Source: an uncultured Rhodopila sp.
Lineage (GTDB): Bacteria; Pseudomonadota; Alphaproteobacteria; Acetobacterales; Acetobacteraceae
Length of the DNA: 64,000 nucleotides
Assembly (NCBI GenBank): GCA_903932145.1
Contig: CAIZFE010000086.1
Span: 248,001-312,000, forward strand
Reading direction: 5' to 3'
In this document: piece by piece, positions 29,969 to 40,328 of the stretch
How positions within the stretch are numbered: the stretch's first letter is position 1
How the letters are laid out: each line of letters opens with the position of its first letter
Program-made: the position numbers and the translations under genes
Notes under the pieces: generated by a model
The model's input: the letters and a program-made list of their open reading frames with translations, nothing else
What the model was told of the DNA's origin: nothing
The model's database searches: none

Positions 29969-30655
29969 ATGAGCATCATCCTGTATGACCTCGCCGGAGC
30001 AGACCCGGACCTGCGGTTCAGCCCGTATTGCTGGCGGACCCGCTTCGCCCTCGCCCACAAAGGCCTGCCGGTGGAGACCGTGCCGTGGCGGTTCACCGAC
30101 GGGGCGGTGATCGCGTTCTCGGGCCAGGGCAAGGTGCCGGTGATCGTGGACGCAGGCAAAGTCGTCTCCGACAGTTGGGTGATCGCGGATTATCTGGAGG
30201 AACAGGCGCCCACCCCGACTTTGTTCGGCGGCCCGACCGGGCGCGCCCATGCCTCGTTCGTCAATGCATGGGCCGACTCCATCCTTGTCGGCGCCATCGC
30301 TCGGTTTATTGTCCGTGATCTGTTGGACATTATCGATCCCAAAGACGTCGATTACTTTCGTTCCAGCCGGGAGGCTCGTTTCGGTGCCACGCTTGAGGCC
30401 GTGCAGGCGGGGCGGGAGGACCGCGTGGCGGCGTTCCGCGACCTGCTGCTGCCGGTTCGCCTTCACCTGCGCAAAAACCAATGGCTTGGCGGCGCCGCCC
30501 CCAGCTATGCGGACCACATCGTCGCCGGCACGCTGATGTGGCCGTATTGCGCCAGCCGGTTCGAGTTACTTGAGCCGAACGATCCGGTGGCCCACTGGCA
30601 GGGCCGCATGCTGGATTTGTATGGCGGCCTTGGGCGGGCCGCCAAACGGGCCTAA
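29969..30655 (+). CDS. glutathione S-transferase family protein
   Basis: A 228-residue protein with a thioredoxin-like N-terminal domain (IILYDLAGADPDLRFSPYCW, with a Ser/Cys pair at the typical active-site helix start; GKVPVIVDAGKVVSDSWVIA for the cis-Pro and glutathione contacts) and an all-helical C-terminal domain (residues about 95-228). Such proteins conjugate glutathione or act as reductases or structural partners. The start at 29969 has only a weak ribosome site. The stop overlaps the convergent giant repeat gene by four bases. No partner gene indicates its substrate. Confidence 0.85.
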   Translation: MSIILYDLAGADPDLRFSPYCWRTRFALAHKGLPVETVPWRFTDGAVIAFSGQGKVPVIVDAGKVVSDSWVIADYLEEQAPTPTLFGGPTGRAHASFVNAWADSILVGAIARFIVRDLLDIIDPKDVDYFRSSREARFGATLEAVQAGREDRVAAFRDLLLPVRLHLRKNQWLGGAAPSYADHIVAGTLMWPYCASRFELLEPNDPVAHWQGRMLDLYGGLGRAAKRA

Positions 30656-33600
30656 AGCGCTCCGATCTGCGCCGTCGTCATAACGCCGAGCTGGGTGCTG
30701 GTGAAGGCGGGGATCTGAGCCGTGCCCATGGCGTTGAGTTGCGCGGTGGTAAACGCCGGTATCTGACCGGTGCTGAACGCCGGGATTTGACTGGTCGTCA
30801 GTGCCGACATCTGCGCCGTTGTCAGGGCCACGATATCCGCTGTGGTCAATGCCATGAGCTGCGTGGTCGACAGCGCCACGATATCGGCGGTGGTCAGCGC
30901 GGCGGTTTCCGCGGTTGTCAGGGCGCTGATCGCCGCCGACCCTAATGCCGGCAGTTGTGCCGTGGTCAACGCCAGCACGGCCGCGGATGTCAGCGCCGCG
31001 AACTGCGACGATCCAAACCCCATCAGCGCCGAGGTGGACAGGGCGGCGGCCTGAGCGGTGGTGATCGCCCCCGCGTCGGCGGTCGTTAACGCCGCGGTTT
31101 GTGCGGATGTCAAAGACGCTGCCTGGGTTGTCGTCAGGGCGGCGGTCTGGGCGGTGGTCAAGACGGCGATTTCACTGGTGGACAAGGCTTTGACATCGCC
31201 GGTCGTCATGGCGGCAACCTCGGCGGTTGTCAGGGCCGCGACCTGTGCGGTGGTCAGGGCGTCGGTCTGTGCGCTGGTCAGTGCGGCCATCTGAGCCGTC
31301 GTCAGAGCGGCGGTTTCCGCCGTGGTCAGGGCACTCAGGGCGGCGGTGGTCAGGGCCGAAACCTGTGCCGTAGTCAGTGCGGCGATGTCGCCCGACGCCA
31401 TGGCAACGATACTCGCGGACCCCAGCCCGGCGATCGCCGCCGTGGAGAACGCCGCGGTCTGCGCCGTGGTAATGGCGCCTGCTTGCGCGGTGGTGAGGGC
31501 GACGGTTTGTGCCGATGTCAGGACCGACACCTGACCGGTCGTCAGGGCCGCGACCTGGGCGGTTGTCAATGCCGCCACCTGTGCCGTTCCAAGCGCTTTG
31601 ATATCGGCGGTGGGGAGCGCGACGGCCTGTGCCGTGGTCAGCGCCGCGATCTGCGCCGTCGTCAGGCCGGCGGCCTGTGCCGTGGTCAGCGCGGCCACCT
31701 GAGCCGTTGTCAGAGCGGCGGTTTCCGCCGTGGTCAGTGCGCTGATCGCGGCCGTGGTCAGCGCAGGGATCTGCGCGGTGGTGAAGGCGGCGATGTCTCC
31801 CGATGCCATGGCCGCGAGATCGGCCGAACTCAGTCCCGCGAGTCCCCCGGTGGACACGGCAGCGGCCTGGGCGGTGGTGATCGCACCGGCCTGGGCAGTC
31901 GTCAGGGCGCCGATCTGCGTCGAGGACAGCACCGGTATCTGCGCCGTTGTCAGGGCGGCGACCTGCGCGGTTGTCATGGCGGCGATCTGGCCGGTGCCCA
32001 CCGCCTTGATCTGGCCCGTCGTCAGCGCGGCCACCTGGCTGGTGGTCAATGCCGCCAGTTGTGCGGTGGTCAGGCCGGCGATCTGCGCCGATGTCAGGAC
32101 TGTCACCTGAGCGGTGGTCAATGCCGCGGCCTCCGCCGTCGTCAGGGCGCCTATCGCGGTCGCGGTCAACCCCGGGATCTGGGCGGTGGTGAAAGCGGCG
32201 ATATCGCCCGATGCCATGGCAACGATACTGGCGGACCCCAGCCCGGCAATGCCGGCCAGGGACAAAGCGGCGGCCTGCGCGGTGGTGATCGCGCCCGCTT
32301 CGGCCGTGGTCAGCGCGCCGGTTTGCGCAGAGGACAGCACCGGCACTTGGGCGGTGGTCAACGCCGCCACCTGTGCGGTCGTCAGGGCCGCGATCTGGGC
32401 GGTGGTCAGCGCCTTCACCTCGGCCGATGTCAGCGCGGCCATCTGCGCCGTGGTCAGTGCCGCGATCTGAGCTGTCGTCAGGGCGGCGACCTGCCCCGAG
32501 GTCATGGCGACGATTTGCGCCGTCGTCAGGGCGGCGGTTTCGGCGGTGGTCAGGGCGGTGATCGCGGCGGTGGTCAGGGACGGCATTTGTGCCGTGGTGA
32601 AGGCGGCGATATCGCCGGACGCCATGGCCACGATACTCGCGGACCCCAGTCCCGCGATCCCGGCGGTGGACAATGCGGCAGCCTCGGCGGTTGTGATCGC
32701 TCCGGCCTCCGCGGTGGTCAGGCCAGCGGTCTGTGCCGAGGACAGCACCGGAACCTGCGCCGTGGTCAGGGCCGCGACCTGGGCGGTGGTCAGCGCGGCG
32801 ACCTGCGTGGTTGTCAGTGCCTTGATGCCGGCCGTGGTCAGCGCGGCAACCTGCGCCGTGGTCAGCGCCGCCACCTGTGCGGTTGTCAGGGCGGCGATCT
32901 GGCCGGAGCCGAGGGCGGCGAGTTTCGCCGAACTCAGGGCGGCGGTTTCTGCTGTCGTTAATGCGGCGATCGCGGCGGTGGTCAGGGATGGAACCTGCGT
33001 CGTGGTGAACGCCGCGATATCGCCGGACGCCATCGCCACGATACTCGCGGACCCGAGACCGGCCATGCCGGAGGTGGACAACGCGGCGGCCTGGGCGGTT
33101 GTGATCGCCGCGGCCTGCGCCGTTGTCAGGGCGGCGGCCTGGGCGGAGGACAGGGTTGGAACCTGAGTGGTGATCAGCGCGGCGATCTGTGCGGTGGTCA
33201 AGGCGGCGATCTGGGCGGTCGTCAGGGCCTTCACCTCGGCCGTGGTCAACGCGGCGACCTGGCCGGTGGTCAGTGCGGCGATCTGCGCCGTGGTCAGGGC
33301 GGCGATCTGTGCCGATGTCATTGCGATCACCTGAGCCGTCGTCAGGGCCGCTGTTTCGGCGGTGGTCAGGGCGGTGATGGCGGCCGAGGACAGACCCGGT
33401 ATCTGGGTCGTGGTGAACGCGGCGATGTCACCGGACGCCATGGCAACGATACTGGCGGACCCGAGGCCGGCAATGCCGGCGGTGGATAGCGCGGCCGCCT
33501 GGGCCGTGGTGATCGCGCCGGCCTGGGCCGTCGTCAGCGCGCCGGTTTGGCCGGACGACAGCACGGGAACCTGCGCGGTGGTCAGGGCGGCGACCTGGGC

Positions 33601-36600
33601 CGTCGTCAATGCCGCCACCTGAGCGGTGGTCAACGCCTTGATCCCGGTGGTTGTCACAGCGGCGGCCTGGCCGGTGGTCAGGGCGGCAATCTGCGCCGTT
33701 GTCAGCGCCGCGATCTGTGCCGAGGTCAGCGCCGCGATCTGTGCGGTGGTCAGGGCGGCGGTCTCGGCCGTGGTCAGGGCAACGACGGCGGCTGTCGTCA
33801 GGGCGGGAACCTGAGCCGTGGTCAGGGCGGCGATGTCGCCCGACGCCATGGCGGCGATGCTGGCGGAGCCAAGCCCGGCGATCCCCGCGGTGGACAGAGC
33901 GGCGGCCTGGGCCGTGGTGATGGCTCCGGCCTGCGCGGTTGTGAGCGCCCCGACCTGCGTCGAGGACAAGGCAGGGACCTGGGCGGTGGTCATTGCGGCG
34001 ACCTGGGCCGTGGTCAGGGCGATGATTTGCGCGGTGGTCAACGCTTTCAGTTCGGCTGTGGTCAATGCTGCGATCTGGCCGGTGGTCAATGCGGCGATCT
34101 GCGCGGTCGTCAGTGCCGCGATCTGAGCTGATCCCCAGGCGACCAATTGCGCGGTGGTCAACGCGGCCGTCTCGGCTGTCGTCAACGCCCCCAGCGCGGC
34201 GGTGGACAGGGCCGCCATCTGGGCGGTCGTGAGGGCGGCGATGTCGCCCGACGCCATGGCGACGATGCTGGCGGAACCAAGCCCTGCAATTCCCGCGGTG
34301 GACAGAGCGGCGGCCTGAGCCGTTGTCAGCGCGCCCGCCTCGGCTGTCGTCAGGGCGGCGGTTTGCACCGAGGACAGCACCTGAACCTGAGCGGTCGTCA
34401 GCGCCGCGATCTGAGCGGTGGTCATAGCCGCCACCTGTGCGGTCGTCAGAGCCTTAATATCGGCGGTCGTCAAAGCGGCGGCCTGGGCGGTGGTCAACGC
34501 GGCGATTTGCGCCGTGGTCAGCGCGGCGGCCTGAGCCGATCCCAAGGCAAGGATCTGAGCGGTGGTCAGCGCCGCTGTCTCCGCCGTGGTCAGCGCACCG
34601 ATCGCTGCGGTGTTCAGCGCCGGAACCTGCGCAGTGGTGAAGGCGGCGATGTCGCCGGATGCCATGGCGGCGATGCTGGCGGTTGCCAGTCCGGCGATGC
34701 CCGTGGTGGACAGCGCGGCGGCCTGCGCGGTGGTGATCGCTCCCGCCTCAGCGGTCGTCAGCGCGGCGGTTTGGGCCGAGCTTAACACCGGAACCTGAGC
34801 GGTCGTCAGCGCGGCCACCTGCGCTGTGGTGAAAGCCGCGATCTGCGCGGTCGTCAGGGATTTAATCTCGGCGGTCGTCAAAGCGGCGGCCTGTGCCGTG
34901 GTCAACGCGGCGATCTGCGCTGTTGTCAGAGCGGCGGCCTGTGCCGACGTCATTGCGGCGATTTGCGCTGTCGTCAGCGCCGCGGTTTCCGCCGTGGTCA
35001 GGGCTGCGAGCGCGGCGGTGGTCAACGCGGGGATCTGCGCCGTGGTGAATGCGGCGATGTCGCCCGACGCCATGGCAACGATGCTGGCGGACCCCAACCC
35101 GGCGATACCGGCAGTGGACAGCGCGGCGGCCTGCGCGGTGGTGATCGCACCCGCCTCGGCCGTTGTCAGGGCGCCGGTCTGGGCGGACGACAGCACCGGA
35201 ACCTCCGCCGTGGTCAGCGCGGCGATCTGGGCGGTGGTCATGGCCGCGATCTGCGTCGTGGTCAGCGCCTTTACTTCGGCGGTCGTCAGTGCCGCGACCT
35301 GAGCGGTGGTCAGGGCGGCGATCTGAGCGGTCGTGAGGGCGGCAACCTGTGCGGAGCCGAGTGCGATCACCTGTGCCGTCGTCAGCGCGGCGGTTTCCGC
35401 CGTGGTCAGTGCCGCGACCGCCGCCGTGGACAGCGCCGGAACCTGCGCCGTGGTCAACGCGGCGATGTCGCCGGATGCCATGGCCGCGATGGCGGCGGAC
35501 CCCAACCCGGCAATACCGGCGGTGGACAGCGCGGCGGCCTGCGCGGTGGTGATCGCGCCGGCCTCGGCCGTTGTCAGGGCGCCGATCTGCGCCGACGACA
35601 GCAACGGAACCTGCGTCGTGGTCAGCGCGGCCACCTGGGCGGTGGTCATGGCCGCGATCTGCGTCGTGGTCAGCGCCTTTACCTCGGCGGTCGTCAGTGC
35701 CGCGACCTGAGCGGTTGTCAGGGCCGCGATCTGTGCCGTGGTCAGCGCCGCGATCTGAGCGGACCCCAACGCGGACATTTGCGCGGTTGTCAGCGCGGCG
35801 GTCTCCGCCGTTGTCATGGCAGCGACCGCGGCGGTCGTCAGAGCCGGTAGCTGTGCCGTGGTCAAAGCGGCGATATCGCCGGACGCCATGGCCACGATGG
35901 CGGCGGACCCCAGGCCGCCGATGCCGGCGGTGGACAACGCGGCCGCTTCGGTCGTGGTCAACGCGCCGGCCTCGGCGGTGGTCAGCGCGCCGGTCTGCGT
36001 TGCGCCAAGCGTGGCCACTTCGGCCGTCGTCAACGCCGCCACCTGAGCGGTCGTCAAAGCGGCGATTTGTGCCGTTCCCAAGGCTTTGACCTGGGCAGTC
36101 AACAGGGAAGCGGCCTGAGCCGTCGTCAGTGCGACGATCTGCGCCGTCGTCAGCGCGGCCACCTGAGCCGATGCTAACGCTACCATCTGGGCGGTTGTCA
36201 GCGCGGCCGTCTCCCCCGTGGTCAGGGCGGCGACGGCGCCGGTGGTCAAAGCCGGGATCTGGGCGGTCGTGAAGGCGGCGATATCGCCCGATGCCATGGC
36301 CACGATGCTGGCCGCCCCAAGCCCCGCGAGCCCGGCCACGGACAGAGCAGCGGCTTGCGCGGTCGTGATAGCGCCAGCCTCGGCCGTGGTCAGCCCGGCG
36401 ATCTGGGCTGACGTCAGAGCGGCAATCTGTGCGGTTGTCAGGGCGGCGATTTGCGCCGTCGTCATCGCGGCCATCTGCGCCGAACCCAGTGCCTTGATCT
36501 GGGCGGTCAGCAGCGCGGCGGCCTGACCGGTGGTCAAGGCGGCGATCTCCGCGGTGGTCAATGCGGCAATCTGGGCCGATCCCAGCGCGATCACCTCAGC

Positions 36601-36939
36601 CGTGGTCAGCGCCGCGACCTCCGCCGTCGTCAGCGCGTCCAGCGCGCCCGCCGTCAATGCCGGCATCTGCGCGGTGGTAAACGCCGCCACGTCGCCCGAC
36701 GCCAGCGCGGCCATTTGTGAGGAACCCAGTCCGGCCAGGGCCTTGGTTGTCAGCGCGGCAGCCTGCGCGGTGGTCAACGCCGCGGCCTCGGCCGTGGTCA
36801 GCGCCGCGATTTGCGCGGAGGTCAGCCCGATGACCTGGCCCGTTGTCAAGGCCGCGATCTGTGTGGTCGTCAGCGCGGCGATCGTGCTGGTCGGCAACGC
36901 GGCGATCTGGGCAGAGGTCAGGGCGGTGATGGACGACAT
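30652..36939 (-). CDS. giant octapeptide-repeat protein (Thr/Ala-rich)
   Basis: 2095 residues from an ATG at 36939 with a GGAG site; a longer frame to 37059 reads a basic, non-repetitive leader and is less likely. From about residue 5 to the last residue the protein consists of 8-residue units of consensus TTAQIAAL. These are arranged in a 136-residue superunit of 17 units in fixed order, including GSASIVAM, ASGDIAAF, TTAQ(I/V)PAL, TTAEVKAL (the only Lys), TTAQVPVL, SSAQTGAL and STAGIAGL. Each superunit thus has one Asp, one Lys and two Pro in fixed positions. There is no signal peptide, no membrane helix, no Cys and no RTX-type C-terminal end. A long regular solenoid is likely. Function unknown; candidates are a scaffold, a surface fibre or a glycosylation acceptor. 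Confidence 0.85.
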   Translation of the reverse strand: MSSITALTSAQIAALPTSTIAALTTTQIAALTTGQVIGLTSAQIAALTTAEAAALTTAQAAALTTKALAGLGSSQMAALASGDVAAFTTAQMPALTAGALDALTTAEVAALTTAEVIALGSAQIAALTTAEIAALTTGQAAALLTAQIKALGSAQMAAMTTAQIAALTTAQIAALTSAQIAGLTTAEAGAITTAQAAALSVAGLAGLGAASIVAMASGDIAAFTTAQIPALTTGAVAALTTGETAALTTAQMVALASAQVAALTTAQIVALTTAQAASLLTAQVKALGTAQIAALTTAQVAALTTAEVATLGATQTGALTTAEAGALTTTEAAALSTAGIGGLGSAAIVAMASGDIAALTTAQLPALTTAAVAAMTTAETAALTTAQMSALGSAQIAALTTAQIAALTTAQVAALTTAEVKALTTTQIAAMTTAQVAALTTTQVPLLSSAQIGALTTAEAGAITTAQAAALSTAGIAGLGSAAIAAMASGDIAALTTAQVPALSTAAVAALTTAETAALTTAQVIALGSAQVAALTTAQIAALTTAQVAALTTAEVKALTTTQIAAMTTAQIAALTTAEVPVLSSAQTGALTTAEAGAITTAQAAALSTAGIAGLGSASIVAMASGDIAAFTTAQIPALTTAALAALTTAETAALTTAQIAAMTSAQAAALTTAQIAALTTAQAAALTTAEIKSLTTAQIAAFTTAQVAALTTAQVPVLSSAQTAALTTAEAGAITTAQAAALSTTGIAGLATASIAAMASGDIAAFTTAQVPALNTAAIGALTTAETAALTTAQILALGSAQAAALTTAQIAALTTAQAAALTTADIKALTTAQVAAMTTAQIAALTTAQVQVLSSVQTAALTTAEAGALTTAQAAALSTAGIAGLGSASIVAMASGDIAALTTAQMAALSTAALGALTTAETAALTTAQLVAWGSAQIAALTTAQIAALTTGQIAALTTAELKALTTAQIIALTTAQVAAMTTAQVPALSSTQVGALTTAQAGAITTAQAAALSTAGIAGLGSASIAAMASGDIAALTTAQVPALTTAAVVALTTAETAALTTAQIAALTSAQIAALTTAQIAALTTGQAAAVTTTGIKALTTAQVAALTTAQVAALTTAQVPVLSSGQTGALTTAQAGAITTAQAAALSTAGIAGLGSASIVAMASGDIAAFTTTQIPGLSSAAITALTTAETAALTTAQVIAMTSAQIAALTTAQIAALTTGQVAALTTAEVKALTTAQIAALTTAQIAALITTQVPTLSSAQAAALTTAQAAAITTAQAAALSTSGMAGLGSASIVAMASGDIAAFTTTQVPSLTTAAIAALTTAETAALSSAKLAALGSGQIAALTTAQVAALTTAQVAALTTAGIKALTTTQVAALTTAQVAALTTAQVPVLSSAQTAGLTTAEAGAITTAEAAALSTAGIAGLGSASIVAMASGDIAAFTTAQMPSLTTAAITALTTAETAALTTAQIVAMTSGQVAALTTAQIAALTTAQMAALTSAEVKALTTAQIAALTTAQVAALTTAQVPVLSSAQTGALTTAEAGAITTAQAAALSLAGIAGLGSASIVAMASGDIAAFTTAQIPGLTATAIGALTTAEAAALTTAQVTVLTSAQIAGLTTAQLAALTTSQVAALTTGQIKAVGTGQIAAMTTAQVAALTTAQIPVLSSTQIGALTTAQAGAITTAQAAAVSTGGLAGLSSADLAAMASGDIAAFTTAQIPALTTAAISALTTAETAALTTAQVAALTTAQAAGLTTAQIAALTTAQAVALPTADIKALGTAQVAALTTAQVAALTTGQVSVLTSAQTVALTTAQAGAITTAQTAAFSTAAIAGLGSASIVAMASGDIAALTTAQVSALTTAALSALTTAETAALTTAQMAALTSAQTDALTTAQVAALTTAEVAAMTTGDVKALSTSEIAVLTTAQTAALTTTQAASLTSAQTAALTTADAGAITTAQAAALSTSALMGFGSSQFAALTSAAVLALTTAQLPALGSAAISALTTAETAALTTADIVALSTTQLMALTTADIVALTTAQMSALTTSQIPAFSTGQIPAFTTAQLNAMGTAQIPAFTSTQLGVMTTAQIGAL
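30970..36800 (-). repeat. nested tandem repeat: 24-bp units within 408-bp superunits
   Basis: The ASGDIAA-coding block recurs at 31381, 31789, 32197, 32605, 33013, 33421, 33829, 34237, 34645, 35053, 35461, 35869, 36277 and 36685: 14 copies spaced exactly 408 bp with no indel. A diverged 15th copy (TSAAVLAL instead of ASGDIAAF) lies at about 30973. Third-position differences between copies show that the array is not a recent simple amplification. It lies entirely inside the giant repeat CDS. Confidence 0.93.
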
Positions 36940-37049: not shown

Positions 37050-37110
37050 CGCCGGGCATTTTATTTTCTTTTTGAGCGATTTTTCTTGCCGCTATTTTTT
37101 CGATTGCGCG

Positions 37111-37149: not shown

Positions 37150-38442
37150 ATGTCCGGCGCCCACCTTTGGCTGAACCGAATGCTCGCCGTGCCGGGCGTG
37201 CCGGCGGCGTGTCTTGCCCGGGCGACGACCTTGGCGGAACGGGGGGACGATTTTGGCGCTTTCCGATGGTTTTCCCGAGCGGCCAGGGTCGGCCTGCCGG
37301 AGGCCTGTTATCGGCTGGGACGGTGCTACCTTCTCGGTCTGGGTGTGCCCCCCGGGATCAATGAGGCGCTTCGCTGGCTGCGGCGCGCGGCGGAATCCGG
37401 CGATGCGGCGGCGCGGGCCCAGCTTGGATCGCTGGCGCTGCAAGGGGTGACGGATCGCGACCCCGGGGCGCTGTTTGACGTGCCAGGCGCCGGCCCCGAT
37501 TACGACCGGGCCGAATACTGGTGCCGCCTGGCCGGAACGGCGGAGGCCAAGGCGCTGCATGCCTTTATCCTGACCGAAGGGCCGGCTGGACGGCGCGATC
37601 AGGCGGCGGCGGACACTCTCTACCAACAAGCCGCCGACGCCGGCTGGCCGGGCGGTCAGCTCGGTGTCGCCACACGCCTGTTGCGGCAAGGCGGACAGGC
37701 CAACGCCGAACGCGCGGCGGTTCTGTTACGCGCCGCCGCCGCCGCCGGGCTCGCCACGGCGCATCATCTGCTGGGCGTGCTGGCTGAAAGCGGAGCAGTC
37801 GGCGCGGCGGACGTCACCGCCGCCGCAACCCACTACAAGCTGGCGGCCGTGGCCGGTTACGTCCCGGCACAGGTTCGCTATGGATTCGCCATGCTGCTCG
37901 GCCGGGGTATTCCGCGCGACCTGTTCGGAGCGGAAACATGGCTCCGGCGCGCGGCGTTGGCGGGCGACGCGCATGCGTCGGCGGTGGTTGGTTATTTGTA
38001 TGTGCGTGACGACGAGCTGCCGCCCAACCATGGCGAAGCCGCGATCTGGCTCCGCCGAGCCGCCGAGGCAGGCCACCCGGGCGCCGCCCGAACGCTGGGC
38101 CGGCTGTTGCTGCTGGGGGCGGGTGTGCCCCGCGACCTGGCGGACGCCGCGCACTGGCTGCGCCTTGCCGCCGAAGCTGGCGAGCGATCGGCGTGGACCG
38201 ATCTGGTCCGCCTGGCCTTGACCCGCCAGGCCGGGGACGCTGACCGCGCAGAAGCCGCACAATGGCTGCGGGCTGAGGCGGCGGCCGGCGATCCGGCGGC
38301 CCGGTTCGACTATGCGTTGTGTCTTGCGCAGGGAATTGGCGTCGAACGCGATGAGCCGGCGGCGTTGGACTGGGTCCGCCGTTCGGCCATAGCGGGGCAT
38401 AGCGAGGCGATAGCGATGCTGGCTCAGTTACCGGCGACGTAA
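37150..38442 (+). CDS. Sel1-like repeat protein
   Basis: 430 residues of alpha-solenoid built from Sel1-type repeats of about 36 residues, for example EACYRLGRCYLLGLGVPPGI, ALRWLRRAAESGDAAA, YGFAMLLGRGIPRDLFGAET and AAIWLRRAAEAGHPGAARTL. At least nine such units are visible. There is no signal peptide or catalytic motif, so it is probably a cytoplasmic protein-binding scaffold. It is divergent from the giant repeat gene and convergent with the GT41 gene, and a perfect CtrA box lies before it. Sel1 proteins often act with glycosyltransferases or in flagellar and stress regulation, but a specific partner is not shown here. Confidence 0.88.
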   Translation: MSGAHLWLNRMLAVPGVPAACLARATTLAERGDDFGAFRWFSRAARVGLPEACYRLGRCYLLGLGVPPGINEALRWLRRAAESGDAAARAQLGSLALQGVTDRDPGALFDVPGAGPDYDRAEYWCRLAGTAEAKALHAFILTEGPAGRRDQAAADTLYQQAADAGWPGGQLGVATRLLRQGGQANAERAAVLLRAAAAAGLATAHHLLGVLAESGAVGAADVTAAATHYKLAAVAGYVPAQVRYGFAMLLGRGIPRDLFGAETWLRRAALAGDAHASAVVGYLYVRDDELPPNHGEAAIWLRRAAEAGHPGAARTLGRLLLLGAGVPRDLADAAHWLRLAAEAGERSAWTDLVRLALTRQAGDADRAEAAQWLRAEAAAGDPAARFDYALCLAQGIGVERDEPAALDWVRRSAIAGHSEAIAMLAQLPAT

Positions 38443-38452
38443 TATCAGCCCC

Positions 38453-38557
38453 CGTTGAGGCCGACTCTCACCCGATATTTGTCATGGCCCGGTTTGTCCG
38501 GGCCACCTGTCGCGGCACCGTCGAGTCAGGGGTGGCCCGGACAAGCCGGGTCATGAC
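38453..38557. repeat. interspersed palindromic repeat with CGTTGAGGCCGACTCT block
   Basis: CGTTGAGGCCGACTCT at 38453-38468 precedes GTCATGGCCCGGTTTGTCCG (from 38481) and closes with GACAAGCCGGGTCATGAC at 38557. It fills the gap between the convergent Sel1 and GT41 genes. Its right part overlaps the last codons and stop of the GT41 gene. Confidence 0.85.
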
Positions 38558-40328
38558 GGATGTGGCCAGAGGACGCCGATCGGGCAGACCCGGACTCCGC
38601 CATCCGCAACAGGGCTGCCTCGAAATGGCGGGTGAACCCGGCGATGTCGCCGAGCGAGCCTGCCCACGCGGTCTCGCTGAAATGCGCCCGATAGGCCGCG
38701 TAGTGCCGCGGATCGGTGGCGAGGGCCACGGCCGTCGCAACATATGCGTCCAGCGTCTCCGTCACACCGTCATCCGCGCCGATCGCGTGCAGCATTCGAG
38801 CCGCCATTCGCGATGCGAACGACCGGCCGGCGAGCGTCAACAGTGGCAGCCCCATGCGGATGGCGTCGCTGGCGATGGTGCCGGCATTGTAGGGAAATGT
38901 GTCCAGGAACACATCGGCCAGCGCCAGCCGAACCATATAAGTGGCTGGATCGGTGCGGCCGGCAAACAGCAGCCGTGCAGGATCGATGCCTGCGACGATT
39001 GCCCGCAAACGCAGGTTCTGACGCGACCAGATGTTGTCATCGACCAGCCAAAGCACGCTGTCCGGCGCGCCATGCAGTATCCGCATCCATCCCGCGCACA
39101 TCGTCTCGGTGATTTTGTAGTGGTTGGAGAAACAACAAAATATAAAACGATCGTCCGGCAGTCCGGCCTGCGCGCGCGACAGCGGCGCCCCGACCACCCG
39201 CTTGCTATCGTTGGCCTGATACAGGCGTTGGATCGGCATCGGCGCCGGATGATAGGACGCCGCGATGGCCGGCGGCACGACGAAATCGTCGCACAGCATG
39301 TAGTCCAGTTCCGGCAGCGGCACCGGGCCGATAAAGCCGAGGTAGGTCGCCTGGATCGGTGCCGGCTTCCAGCGCAGGATTTGCAGGCGTCCGCCGGATG
39401 TCAGGCCGTTCAGGTCGATCAGGATGTCGATCTCGTCGTCGCGCATGCGCCGGGCCGCAGCCTCGTCGGACATCGATCGAACCGAGGTGAAATGGTCGAA
39501 CGCGGCGATCACCCGGGTGCGGATCGGGCTGCCGTCTTCGGGGCTGGCGCAATAGCCGTGGATTTCGAATCGTTCGCGGTCGTGGCGTTCGAACAGTTCG
39601 ACGATGAGATAGCTCATGGCGTGACTGCAGAAGTCCGATGACAGGTAGCCGATGCGAAGCCGGTCGTGATGGTAACCGCCGGCCGGCGCCAACGCGGGGC
39701 GTGGCTGTGTCTTGCGGGCGATGAACCCGGCGGCGATGGCCCGCTGCGCCTCCACATCGTCGGTCAGCGCCAGCGCGGCGAGGGGGCCGGATTGTCGCAG
39801 CAGATCATCGTGCGACAGGCCGGGAATCGTCTCGGCGAGGACCGGCCATTGGCACATCTTCTGCCGCACATGCAGCCAGTGCTGCACCGCGTCCGGTTGG
39901 TCGTGCCGGGTCAGCAGGCTGTTGCGCAGCACCTCCGCCGCCTGTGCCAGGTCGCCGGATCGTTCCAGCAGCCGCGCCCGTTGGTTTAGCAGGGCCGTGC
40001 GGGACTCGTCCGACTGCAGAGCCTCATCCCAGACCTTTAACGCCGCCGCCGCCGCACCCTGTCGCTCAAGCTGGAGGCCGAGGTTGATCGCCGCGGGGGC
40101 GAAGCCGGGTCTGATCTCCAAAGCGGTCCGATACGCTTGCATGGCCCCCGCGGTATCGCCGGATGCCCCGAGCTCAGTGCCCAGATTGAACCATGCCGCG
40201 TGCAGGCCGGGCGTTCCGGGAGCCGTCGCGGCGATCCAGTCACTATACAGCGCGATCGTTGCTCTCGCGCCGGTGCCCGAACCGATTGCCTCGGCAACGG
40301 CGACGATCTCACGGAAGGAAGTGGCCAT
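38526..40328 (-). CDS. TPR-GT41 glycosyltransferase (O-GlcNAc-transferase-like)
   Basis: A 600-residue protein. TPR repeats cover about residues 45-145 (AWFNLGTELGASGDTAGAMQ, AAINLGLQLERQGAAAAALK). The GT41 catalytic region starts RLRIGYLSSDFCSHAMSYLI, continues with IDILIDLNGLTSGGRLQILR, APIQATYLGFIGPVPLPELD and FCCFSNHYKITETMCAGWM, and has the nucleotide-sugar site LDTFPYNAGTIASDAIRMG with PLLTLAGRSFASRM. GT41 enzymes O-glycosylate Ser/Thr of proteins in the cytoplasm. The last dozen residues (HIRHDPACPGHP) come from a palindromic repeat and are not family sequence. A CtrA-like box lies about 48 bases upstream. A membrane glycosyltransferase-like gene is directly upstream on the same strand. 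Confidence 0.9.
   Translation of the reverse strand: MATSFREIVAVAEAIGSGTGARATIALYSDWIAATAPGTPGLHAAWFNLGTELGASGDTAGAMQAYRTALEIRPGFAPAAINLGLQLERQGAAAAALKVWDEALQSDESRTALLNQRARLLERSGDLAQAAEVLRNSLLTRHDQPDAVQHWLHVRQKMCQWPVLAETIPGLSHDDLLRQSGPLAALALTDDVEAQRAIAAGFIARKTQPRPALAPAGGYHHDRLRIGYLSSDFCSHAMSYLIVELFERHDRERFEIHGYCASPEDGSPIRTRVIAAFDHFTSVRSMSDEAAARRMRDDEIDILIDLNGLTSGGRLQILRWKPAPIQATYLGFIGPVPLPELDYMLCDDFVVPPAIAASYHPAPMPIQRLYQANDSKRVVGAPLSRAQAGLPDDRFIFCCFSNHYKITETMCAGWMRILHGAPDSVLWLVDDNIWSRQNLRLRAIVAGIDPARLLFAGRTDPATYMVRLALADVFLDTFPYNAGTIASDAIRMGLPLLTLAGRSFASRMAARMLHAIGADDGVTETLDAYVATAVALATDPRHYAAYRAHFSETAWAGSLGDIAGFTRHFEAALLRMAESGSARSASSGHIRHDPACPGHP

Follow-up and report, generated by a model that had tools for sequence, protein, structure and literature searches.

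The 64,000-nucleotide stretch of an uncultured Rhodopila sp. analyzed here (positions 248,001 to 312,000 of contig CAIZFE010000086.1, assembly GCA_903932145.1; hereafter the window) carries a gene for a 2095-residue protein built of eight-residue units (octads), for which a long regular alpha-solenoid is strongly supported by structure prediction. On the basis of its repeat pattern and those of its relatives, a turn would take about 3.4 octads, and the 17-octad superunit of the protein would make five whole turns. We further propose that this giant rod is glycosylated by a nearby GT41 enzyme resembling the O-linked N-acetylglucosamine (O-GlcNAc) transferase OGT and is exported, through a type I system in some relatives. 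The proposal as a whole has, in our opinion, about an even chance of being correct, and glycosylation and export are the parts of it that we infer. The octad gene is divided as follows (coordinates are those of the window).

30652..36939, minus strand: ALTTAQ octad protein, 2095 aa, predicted alpha-solenoid rod (open reading frame, Pfam, dN/dS, AlphaFold2)
36511..36918, minus strand: superunit 1 of 15, 17 octads, diverged N-terminal copy
31207..36510, minus strand: superunits 2-14, 408 bp each, 17 octads, probably about 5 turns (Tandem Repeats Finder, copy alignment)
30799..31206, minus strand: superunit 15, diverged, with TSAAVLAL in place of the ASGD octad
30655..30798, minus strand: six C-terminal octads of QIPAF type, alike in the C-termini of the genus orthologues

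The open reading frame (ORF) begins with an ATG at 36939 and stops at 30652-30654. An alternative in-frame ATG is present upstream at 37059 and would lengthen the protein by 40 aa; the starts of genus orthologues (MSSITSLT..., MPSITALT...) align to the ATG at 36939. Behind a 7-residue lead (MSSITAL), all residues fall into 261 octads in a single frame throughout, that is, 15 superunits, each of 17 octads (136 aa), plus the six terminal octads, with zero indels. The six terminal octads are a putative cap or export signal. Tandem Repeats Finder (TRF) gave a 408-bp period with 14.2 copies and 0% indels, and the protein matched itself with an identity of 0.785 when shifted by 17 or 34 octads, against 0.48-0.53 for the remaining shifts listed up to 39. 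Octad 10 is ASGD in superunits 1-14 and TSAAVLAL in superunit 15. The consensus superunit contains one Lys (octad 1), one Asp (octad 10) and two Pro (octads 4 and 11), and the whole protein has 0 Cys, 16 Lys, 23 Asp, 27 Pro and 2 Asn. All this agrees with a first-pass annotation, which had described a protein made entirely of octads with no separate non-repeat domain and no Cys, an indel-free 17-octad superunit of 408 bp, an ASGD block in 14 copies plus one diverged copy, and one Asp, one Lys and two Pro per superunit; the periodicity analysis that it had recommended likewise bore out the 17-octad period.

The superunit copies are old, and the identity of each octad has been kept by selection rather than by recent duplication. 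Among the 78 pairs of superunits 2-14, mean amino-acid identity was 0.79 (58 of 136 columns were invariant), the median rate of nonsynonymous change (dN) was 0.137 and that of synonymous change (dS) was 0.956, which gives a dN/dS of about 0.14 with near-saturated synonymous sites. Codons for the same residue were identical in 0.52 of cases, compared with 0.45 expected from codon usage. Such a combination of near-saturated dS, low dN and codon identity near expectation indicates that octad identity is held by selection, and the comparison, also recommended in the first-pass annotation, supports its claim that selection acts on position within the superunit. Misassembly of the array, which had been named there as a possible refutation, is unlikely because a second assembly of the genus contains an orthologue that has the same period and is exactly 2095 aa long. 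In a third assembly the orthologue has 1415 aa.

The octads belong to a known family. A protein search for the octad pattern, another of the recommended checks, matched Pfam ALTTAQ_rpt (PF20080) with 1310 bits over 86 stretches (gathering cut-off 26.4). PF20080 itself covers a stretch of 38 residues; neither the superunit of 17 or 24 octads nor the 3.4-octad turn nor the GT41 and secretion neighbours appear in the Pfam output. No NCBIfam model matched the protein at E 0.01. A Pfam row for Sigma70_r4_2 within the octad protein (E 3.8e-6, no single stretch passing) was discarded as a chance helix-turn-helix match, and leucine-rich repeat chains in the profile search were put down to similarity in Leu period. 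The repeat occurred in 17 of the 32 other genomes of the genus and in none of 26 sampled genomes outside it, and a sample of the phylum contained 27 carriers among 397 other genomes (own genome left out). A scan of GTDB contigs yielded at least 72 loci, including Pseudomonas, Rhodobacter, Burkholderiales, Rhizobiales, Geobacteraceae and Acetobacteraceae; the best-scoring matches listed are the 72 named loci used below, and the top two named records among them were a Rhodopila sp. and an Acetobacteraceae metagenome-assembled genome. It should be noted that three contigs are represented twice (L077/L111, L078/L114 and L097/L105) and that our counts include these overlaps unless stated. In addition, 20 loci of the genus were fetched, two of which also stand in the named set (L028 is the same locus, on one contig, as L049, the 2095-aa orthologue; L029 is the same as L048). 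Thirteen of the 20 gave octad ORFs passing the filter, with superunit types of 17 and 24 octads and some fragments undecided. The 24-octad type (L030, L033, L034 and L035, same genus) shows a strong two-octad alternation and is T-rich and A-poor. At L036:8533-11695 the octad ORF is broken into pieces with masked bases, probably by an assembly gap. A register-specific superunit profile exceeded 25 bits only in L048, L049 and L052; thus, 17-octad periods in other lineages either use other octads or have diverged past the threshold, and the idea of a superunit common to lineages outside the genus was rejected.

Autocorrelation, covariation and one-sided conservation together point to a turn of about 3.4 octads (27 aa). 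Self-identity pooled over 143 octad runs (87 ORFs, 22,893 octads) peaked at 7, 10, 14, 17, 20, 24, 27, 31, 34, 37, 41, 44, 48, 51... octads. The best common period was 3.400 octads, with an amplitude of 0.86 compared with a maximum of 0.05 in 100 within-run octad shuffles (x100 units), and its alias at 2.43 octads (harmonic 7 of 17) had a pooled amplitude of 0.65. In 71 of 73 proteins the strongest lag (6-80) lay within 0.15 turn of a multiple of 3.4 (chance 0.29), the two misses being L073 (lag 66) and L110 (lag 50); the rule held for 68 of 70 proteins without the three overlapping loci and for 31 of 33 when multiples of 17 were dropped too. This agreement describes rather than tests the rule, because the period was derived from the same data and many of the proteins are related. 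When multiples of 17 were removed, the refitted period was 3.395 for the 38 proteins of the 17-octad type and again 3.395 for the 35 others, where it was nearly tied with 2.0; among the 26 others outside the Pseudomonas group, a period of 2.0 ranked first and 3.405 second.

Covariation was analyzed by a mean-field model of six-octad windows (effective number 6817). Coupling was strongest at two lags: lag 3, where position 5 was joined with 4 (1.30) and 2 with 7 (0.97), and lag 4, where position 6 was joined with 1 (1.35) and with 4 (0.69). Coupling at lag 1 was lower, and lags 2 and 5 fell below the shuffled control (mean of top five). The 5-4 and 2-7 couplings at lag 3 and the 6-1 coupling at lag 4 recurred in every half of two half-splits by locus (39 and 39 loci, then 37 and 38 loci without overlaps), in which related species may fall in both halves. 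These i+3/i+4 couplings decided us for 3.4 over 2.43 octads, as a 2.43-octad turn would require contacts at lags 2-3 and lag-2 couplings were near or below the shuffled level. A model in which each of the 17 octads is a separate turn was rejected by autocorrelation and covariation. At lag 7, octads i and i+7 show covariation of identical residues at positions 2 and 3, which possibly reflects the same face two turns on (a surface ladder) or ancestry.

Conservation on a 3.4-octad wheel was one-sided in the window protein (p 0.011, and 0.006 in a second run) and in both orthologues (p 0.006 and 0.016). A conserved face of this kind was found at p<0.05 in 20 of 48 runs of the 17-octad type (including the overlapping pair L078/L114), and seven other harmonics reached 0-5 of 48 each; of the four proteins of the 24-octad type, three reached significance at the seventh harmonic (3.43). 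The more conserved stripe of the window superunit consists of octads 9, 16, 6, 13, 3, 10 and 7, and octad 17 belongs to it less clearly. At about 3.4 octads per turn, 17 octads would make 5 turns and 24 octads 7 turns; the periodicity and the one-sided conservation thus suggest superunits of whole turns (5 or 7) that keep one face in register along the rod.

AlphaFold2 (AF2) predicted one short helix per octad for aa 552-823 (34 octads, that is, two superunits), with a mean predicted local distance difference test score (pLDDT) of 97.6 (five models 97.1-97.6) and a predicted template-modelling score (pTM) of 0.88; the helix was three residues long in 4 of the 34 octads, those with Pro. The alignment, made with MAFFT, had 91 rows and 336 columns. 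Ninety of the rows came from relatives, cut as octad-framed windows without regard to phase (88 from the 120 listed of 265 candidates and 2 from the register-profile set). Mixing phases presumes that octads are structurally equivalent, a choice of ours with which the AF2 confidence agrees. A prediction for two to three superunits had been asked for in the first-pass annotation, where disorder without periodic structure was the feared outcome, and the predicted model is a regular solenoid. The annotation had proposed a long regular solenoid of 17-turn periodicity: the solenoid is upheld by AF2 and covariation, and the 17 turns give way to about five per superunit. No ARM or HEAT family of Pfam matched the octad protein. 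In a Foldseek search of BFVD, three phage proteins matched the octad model at E <0.001 with low TM-scores (0.21-0.28), and two of them, from uncultured Caudovirales (A0A6J5QPU1, E 1.5e-6; A0A6J5Q6G8, E 1e-5), may contain octad-like repeats. With regard to a phage or plasmid origin, tblastn gave no match, though the BLAST low-complexity filter may conceal matches.

Upstream of the octad gene, the window contains a gene of CAZy family GT41, to which O-GlcNAc transferase and SPINDLY belong.

38526..40328, minus strand: GT41 glycosyltransferase, TPR plus O-GlcNAc-transferase-like catalytic part, 600 aa (PF13844)

The enzyme matched PF13844 with 206 bits (cut-off 25), as well as XcOGT (E 4e-74) and human OGT. 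The 6.66-Mb genome yielded a single GT41 gene and a single ALTTAQ gene, 1.6 kb apart. A DxxxH motif, a Lys and a later Asp, whose roles we take to be those in human OGT, were conserved in 47 of 47 aligned GT41 enzymes (two of them counted twice). An HTT or HST loop is retained in the enzymes linked to the 24-octad type and to Rhizobiales octad genes, and loop motifs vary by group. The enzymes at the 17-octad genus loci L028 and L029 are 74-82% identical to that of the window, and those about 0.1 kb from the 24-octad ORFs of L030, L033 and L034 merely 38-39%; GT41 enzymes of differing motif make-up accompany the two types.

With a profile built from ten octad-linked enzymes, 92 loci (L028-L119) were scanned and GT41 was detected in 48 of them (9 of 20 genus loci and 39 of the 72 named loci listed). 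Nineteen of the named loci listed were flanked by 2.5 kb or more on either side; most of the remaining 53 end at contig or locus edges. GT41 lay within 2.5 kb in 14 of these 19 (8 of the 14 from Pseudomonas) and within 300 bp in 12, and its frame often begins 14-80 bp away from the octad ORF. Among genus loci with flanks of this length, L028, L029, L033, L034 and L042 have GT41, and L032 and L036 do not. In the phylum sample (own genome left out), GT41 was present in 18 of 27 ALTTAQ-positive genomes compared with 114 of 370 others (Fisher p 0.0004), a value that does not refer to independent events because 16 of the 27 come from one family (f69). GT41 beside octad genes is common and not obligatory, since ALTTAQ-positive genomes and loci without it exist. 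In one Rhizobiales genome, an octad protein and GT41 are accompanied by genes for a UDP-galactopyranose mutase and for a protein whose domain resembles farnesoic-acid methyltransferase (L100:10856-15685), which hints at a sugar other than GlcNAc.

Evidence on export comes from relatives. HlyB-, HlyD- or TolC-like genes were matched by tblastn in 22 of the 72 named loci listed, some of these being just weak ABC-transporter matches, and such genes adjoin octad and GT41 genes in Pseudomonas (L051, L068), Rhodobacter (L095) and others. Type I secretion matches were also found at three 24-octad genus loci (L030, L033, L034). Many octad proteins of Pseudomonas and Burkholderiales end in about 290 non-octad residues. 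Seven of ten such tails scanned had an EF-hand row at E<0.01, two of the ten being above the Pfam cut-off (L062, L065), and no EF-hand row was found in the tails of L050, L057 and L096. In the window, the octad protein lacks a tail of this kind, and no transporter gene is linked to it. The other neighbours of the octad gene are as follows.

37150..38442, plus strand: Sel1-repeat protein, upstream of the octad gene and divergent from it
29969-30655, plus strand: glutathione-transferase-like gene, convergent, overlapping the octad stop

Sel1 was matched beside octad genes at six genus loci (L028, L029, L036, L038, L039, L046). The conserved flank of L028 and L029 consists of Sel1 and GT41 and, in some, glutathione transferase, Wzx, SelD or 2-hydroxyacid dehydrogenase. 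Wzx-like polysaccharide genes are also close to the octad gene of the window. An ORF at 38484-39641 (plus strand) is antisense to GT41, had no Pfam match and shows conservation that mirrors that of GT41; it was taken as spurious.

The mechanism that we propose would work as follows. Each octad (T-T-A-Q-I-A-A-L) is predicted to form one short helix, and general knowledge of helices suggests that position 1 (T/S/G/N/P) is its N-cap, that position 4 (Q/E) closes the capping box and that positions 5 and 8 belong to the core. Octad i would pack on octads i+3 and i+4. As 17 octads would make five whole turns, each superunit would present the same face, giving a conserved stripe along the rod. The 261 octads would amount to about 77 turns and, at the typical helix-layer spacing of about 1 nm, to a rod of very roughly 75 nm. 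The nearby GT41 enzyme would attach single sugars to octad Ser/Thr in the cytoplasm before export, and the exported protein, leaving by the adjacent type I system in some relatives, would form a glycosylated surface or extracellular fibre. The most specific form of this proposal, a widespread three-part Gram-negative system in which an octad solenoid, a dedicated O-glycosylating GT41 and type I export produce a sugar-coated rod with superunits of whole turns, is put forward tentatively and with somewhat less than even confidence. It appears not to have been described in print as far as the open-licence literature is concerned: no paper on ALTTAQ, HeliScrew or PF20080 was found there, nor one on the family through octad strings and pairings with solenoid, GT41, OGT or type I secretion, and absence there is no proof.

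A number of observations weigh against the glycosylated and exported rod. With alignment rows from the window protein alone, AF2 gave short helices at pLDDT 73 and pTM 0.49 (five models 35-73). Single runs were split evenly between periods of 2.4 and 3.4 (30 and 30 of 98), the two-octad alternation of the 24-octad type is stronger than its 3.43 (24/7) signal, which ranked second, and one of the four 24-octad proteins (G010) has no 3.43 face. The loop that precedes the conserved Asp has G in the window enzyme (NAGTIASDA) in place of the His of human OGT and XcOGT (HTT to GTI). Five of the 19 well-flanked named loci have no GT41 neighbour (L070, L089, L108, L115, L116; the four genomes holding them all have GT41 elsewhere), and among genus loci GT41 is absent from L032 and L036 despite more than 7.8 kb on both sides, from L031 (flanks of 1.9 and 5.6 kb) and, on the single available side, from L038 and L046, which retain Sel1. 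Nine of the 27 ALTTAQ-positive genomes lack GT41, five of them with one to five weak octad matches and the others (G254, G257, G334, G452) with 4, 5, 4 and 20. Thr/Ser at octad position 2 amounted to 0.79 in five GT41-unlinked loci and 0.80 in linked ones, so the richness in Thr may reflect no more than helix capping, and we rejected a position-2 difference as evidence for glycosylation; at position 1 the values were 0.50 and 0.71, the frame of L116 being shifted (119 of 1255 octads), which depresses the unlinked values. The equal position-2 values and the GT41-free genomes and genus loci would be expected of the same solenoid, exported or not, in an unglycosylated form, with Thr merely capping helices and GT41/TPR acting on another target, for example a surface polysaccharide or a different protein. 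The Wzx-like genes near the window gene and HeliScrew4 (compared below), with mostly P at position 2, fit this explanation too. It is possible and on the whole unlikely, given that GT41 neighbours of differing motifs recur, often at the short spacing described, in Pseudomonas, Rhodobacter, Rhizobiales, Geobacteraceae and Acetobacteraceae.

Neither the window nor the 17-octad genus loci L028 and L029 gave a tblastn match to a secretion gene. The own genome has two HlyB/HlyD pairs on other contigs (L126 C76, L127 C42), and their HlyB are at most 39-45% identical to ALTTAQ-linked HlyB, neither being clearly orthologous. Together with the conserved flank of L028/L029 and the fact that GT41 enzymes are cytoplasmic, this would suit an intracellular scaffold or filament; the type I secretion matches at named and 24-octad loci and the EF-hand-like rows in the tails of relatives argue against it, and we think it rather improbable. 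A modular recognition solenoid like TALE or PUF, whose octads read a ligand and whose superunit is a repeated site on the conserved face, would account for the single face of higher conservation in each superunit and for every octad retaining its own character. It is very improbable in view of the few charged, aromatic or Asn residues available for specific contacts and of scanned neighbour genes that suggest no ligand. Least of all can the tandem DNA repeat detected by TRF be expected to be a neutral slippage or recent functionless duplication array, an explanation left with almost no weight by the low dN/dS, the near-saturated synonymous sites, the lack of any stop or indel and the orthologue of equal length.

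If 3.4 octads per turn with superunits of whole turns is right, it would be a structural rule for the known repeat family ALTTAQ_rpt. Superunit lengths (7, 10, 17, 24, 27, 34, 44 octads...) would then be set by geometry, as heptads and hendecads are by the 3.6-residue alpha-helix, and the rule would help the design of regular rods. To our knowledge, the substrates of bacterial O-GlcNAc-transferase-like enzymes are largely unknown, and the glycosylated and exported rod, if true, would provide a natural substrate for orphan bacterial OGT enzymes.

Among known structures, the best PDB sequence match was HeliScrew4 (9zem; phmmer E 1e-13, profile E 2e-29), which shares octads of the LTPEQIAA kind with the window protein and differs in having 120 aa and mostly P at position 2; the likeness is one of sequence, and 9zem was not among the 50 Foldseek rows listed for the octad model. 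The top Foldseek row was a designed crystal protein (8cws, E 3e-4, TM 0.19), and the best-ranked natural protein was mesothelin (8cx3, 7ued; E 1.6e-3 and up). Compared with the TM value of at least 0.5 expected of the same fold, mesothelin gave 0.25-0.35 when normalised to the query and at best 0.48, in one fragment, when normalised to the target. Mesothelin forms a right-handed solenoid whose short helices are arranged in repeats of 27-37 residues (PMC10035497), which resembles the short-helix octad model and its predicted 27-aa turn; mesothelin differs from the octad protein in its irregular repeats, its eukaryotic origin and the low TM-score. With regard to the enzyme, XcOGT and human OGT are like the GT41 of the window in their TPR and catalytic parts and unlike it in the loop, HTT compared with GTI. 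The closest working parallel to the octad protein and its GT41 is HMW1/HMW1C, as the HMW1 adhesin is reportedly a large exported protein modified by its own GT41-family enzyme, HMW1C. HMW1C is N-linking, whereas the window enzyme is OGT-like and the octad protein has 2 Asn in 2095 aa, few for Asn sequons of the HMW1C type; N-linked modification is unlikely because Asn is almost absent. Furthermore, HMW1 leaves by two-partner secretion, whereas the secretion neighbours of octad relatives are of type I. Thus, the octad rod, if it is glycosylated and exported as proposed, would be an exported glycoprotein fibre of a form unlike HMW1.

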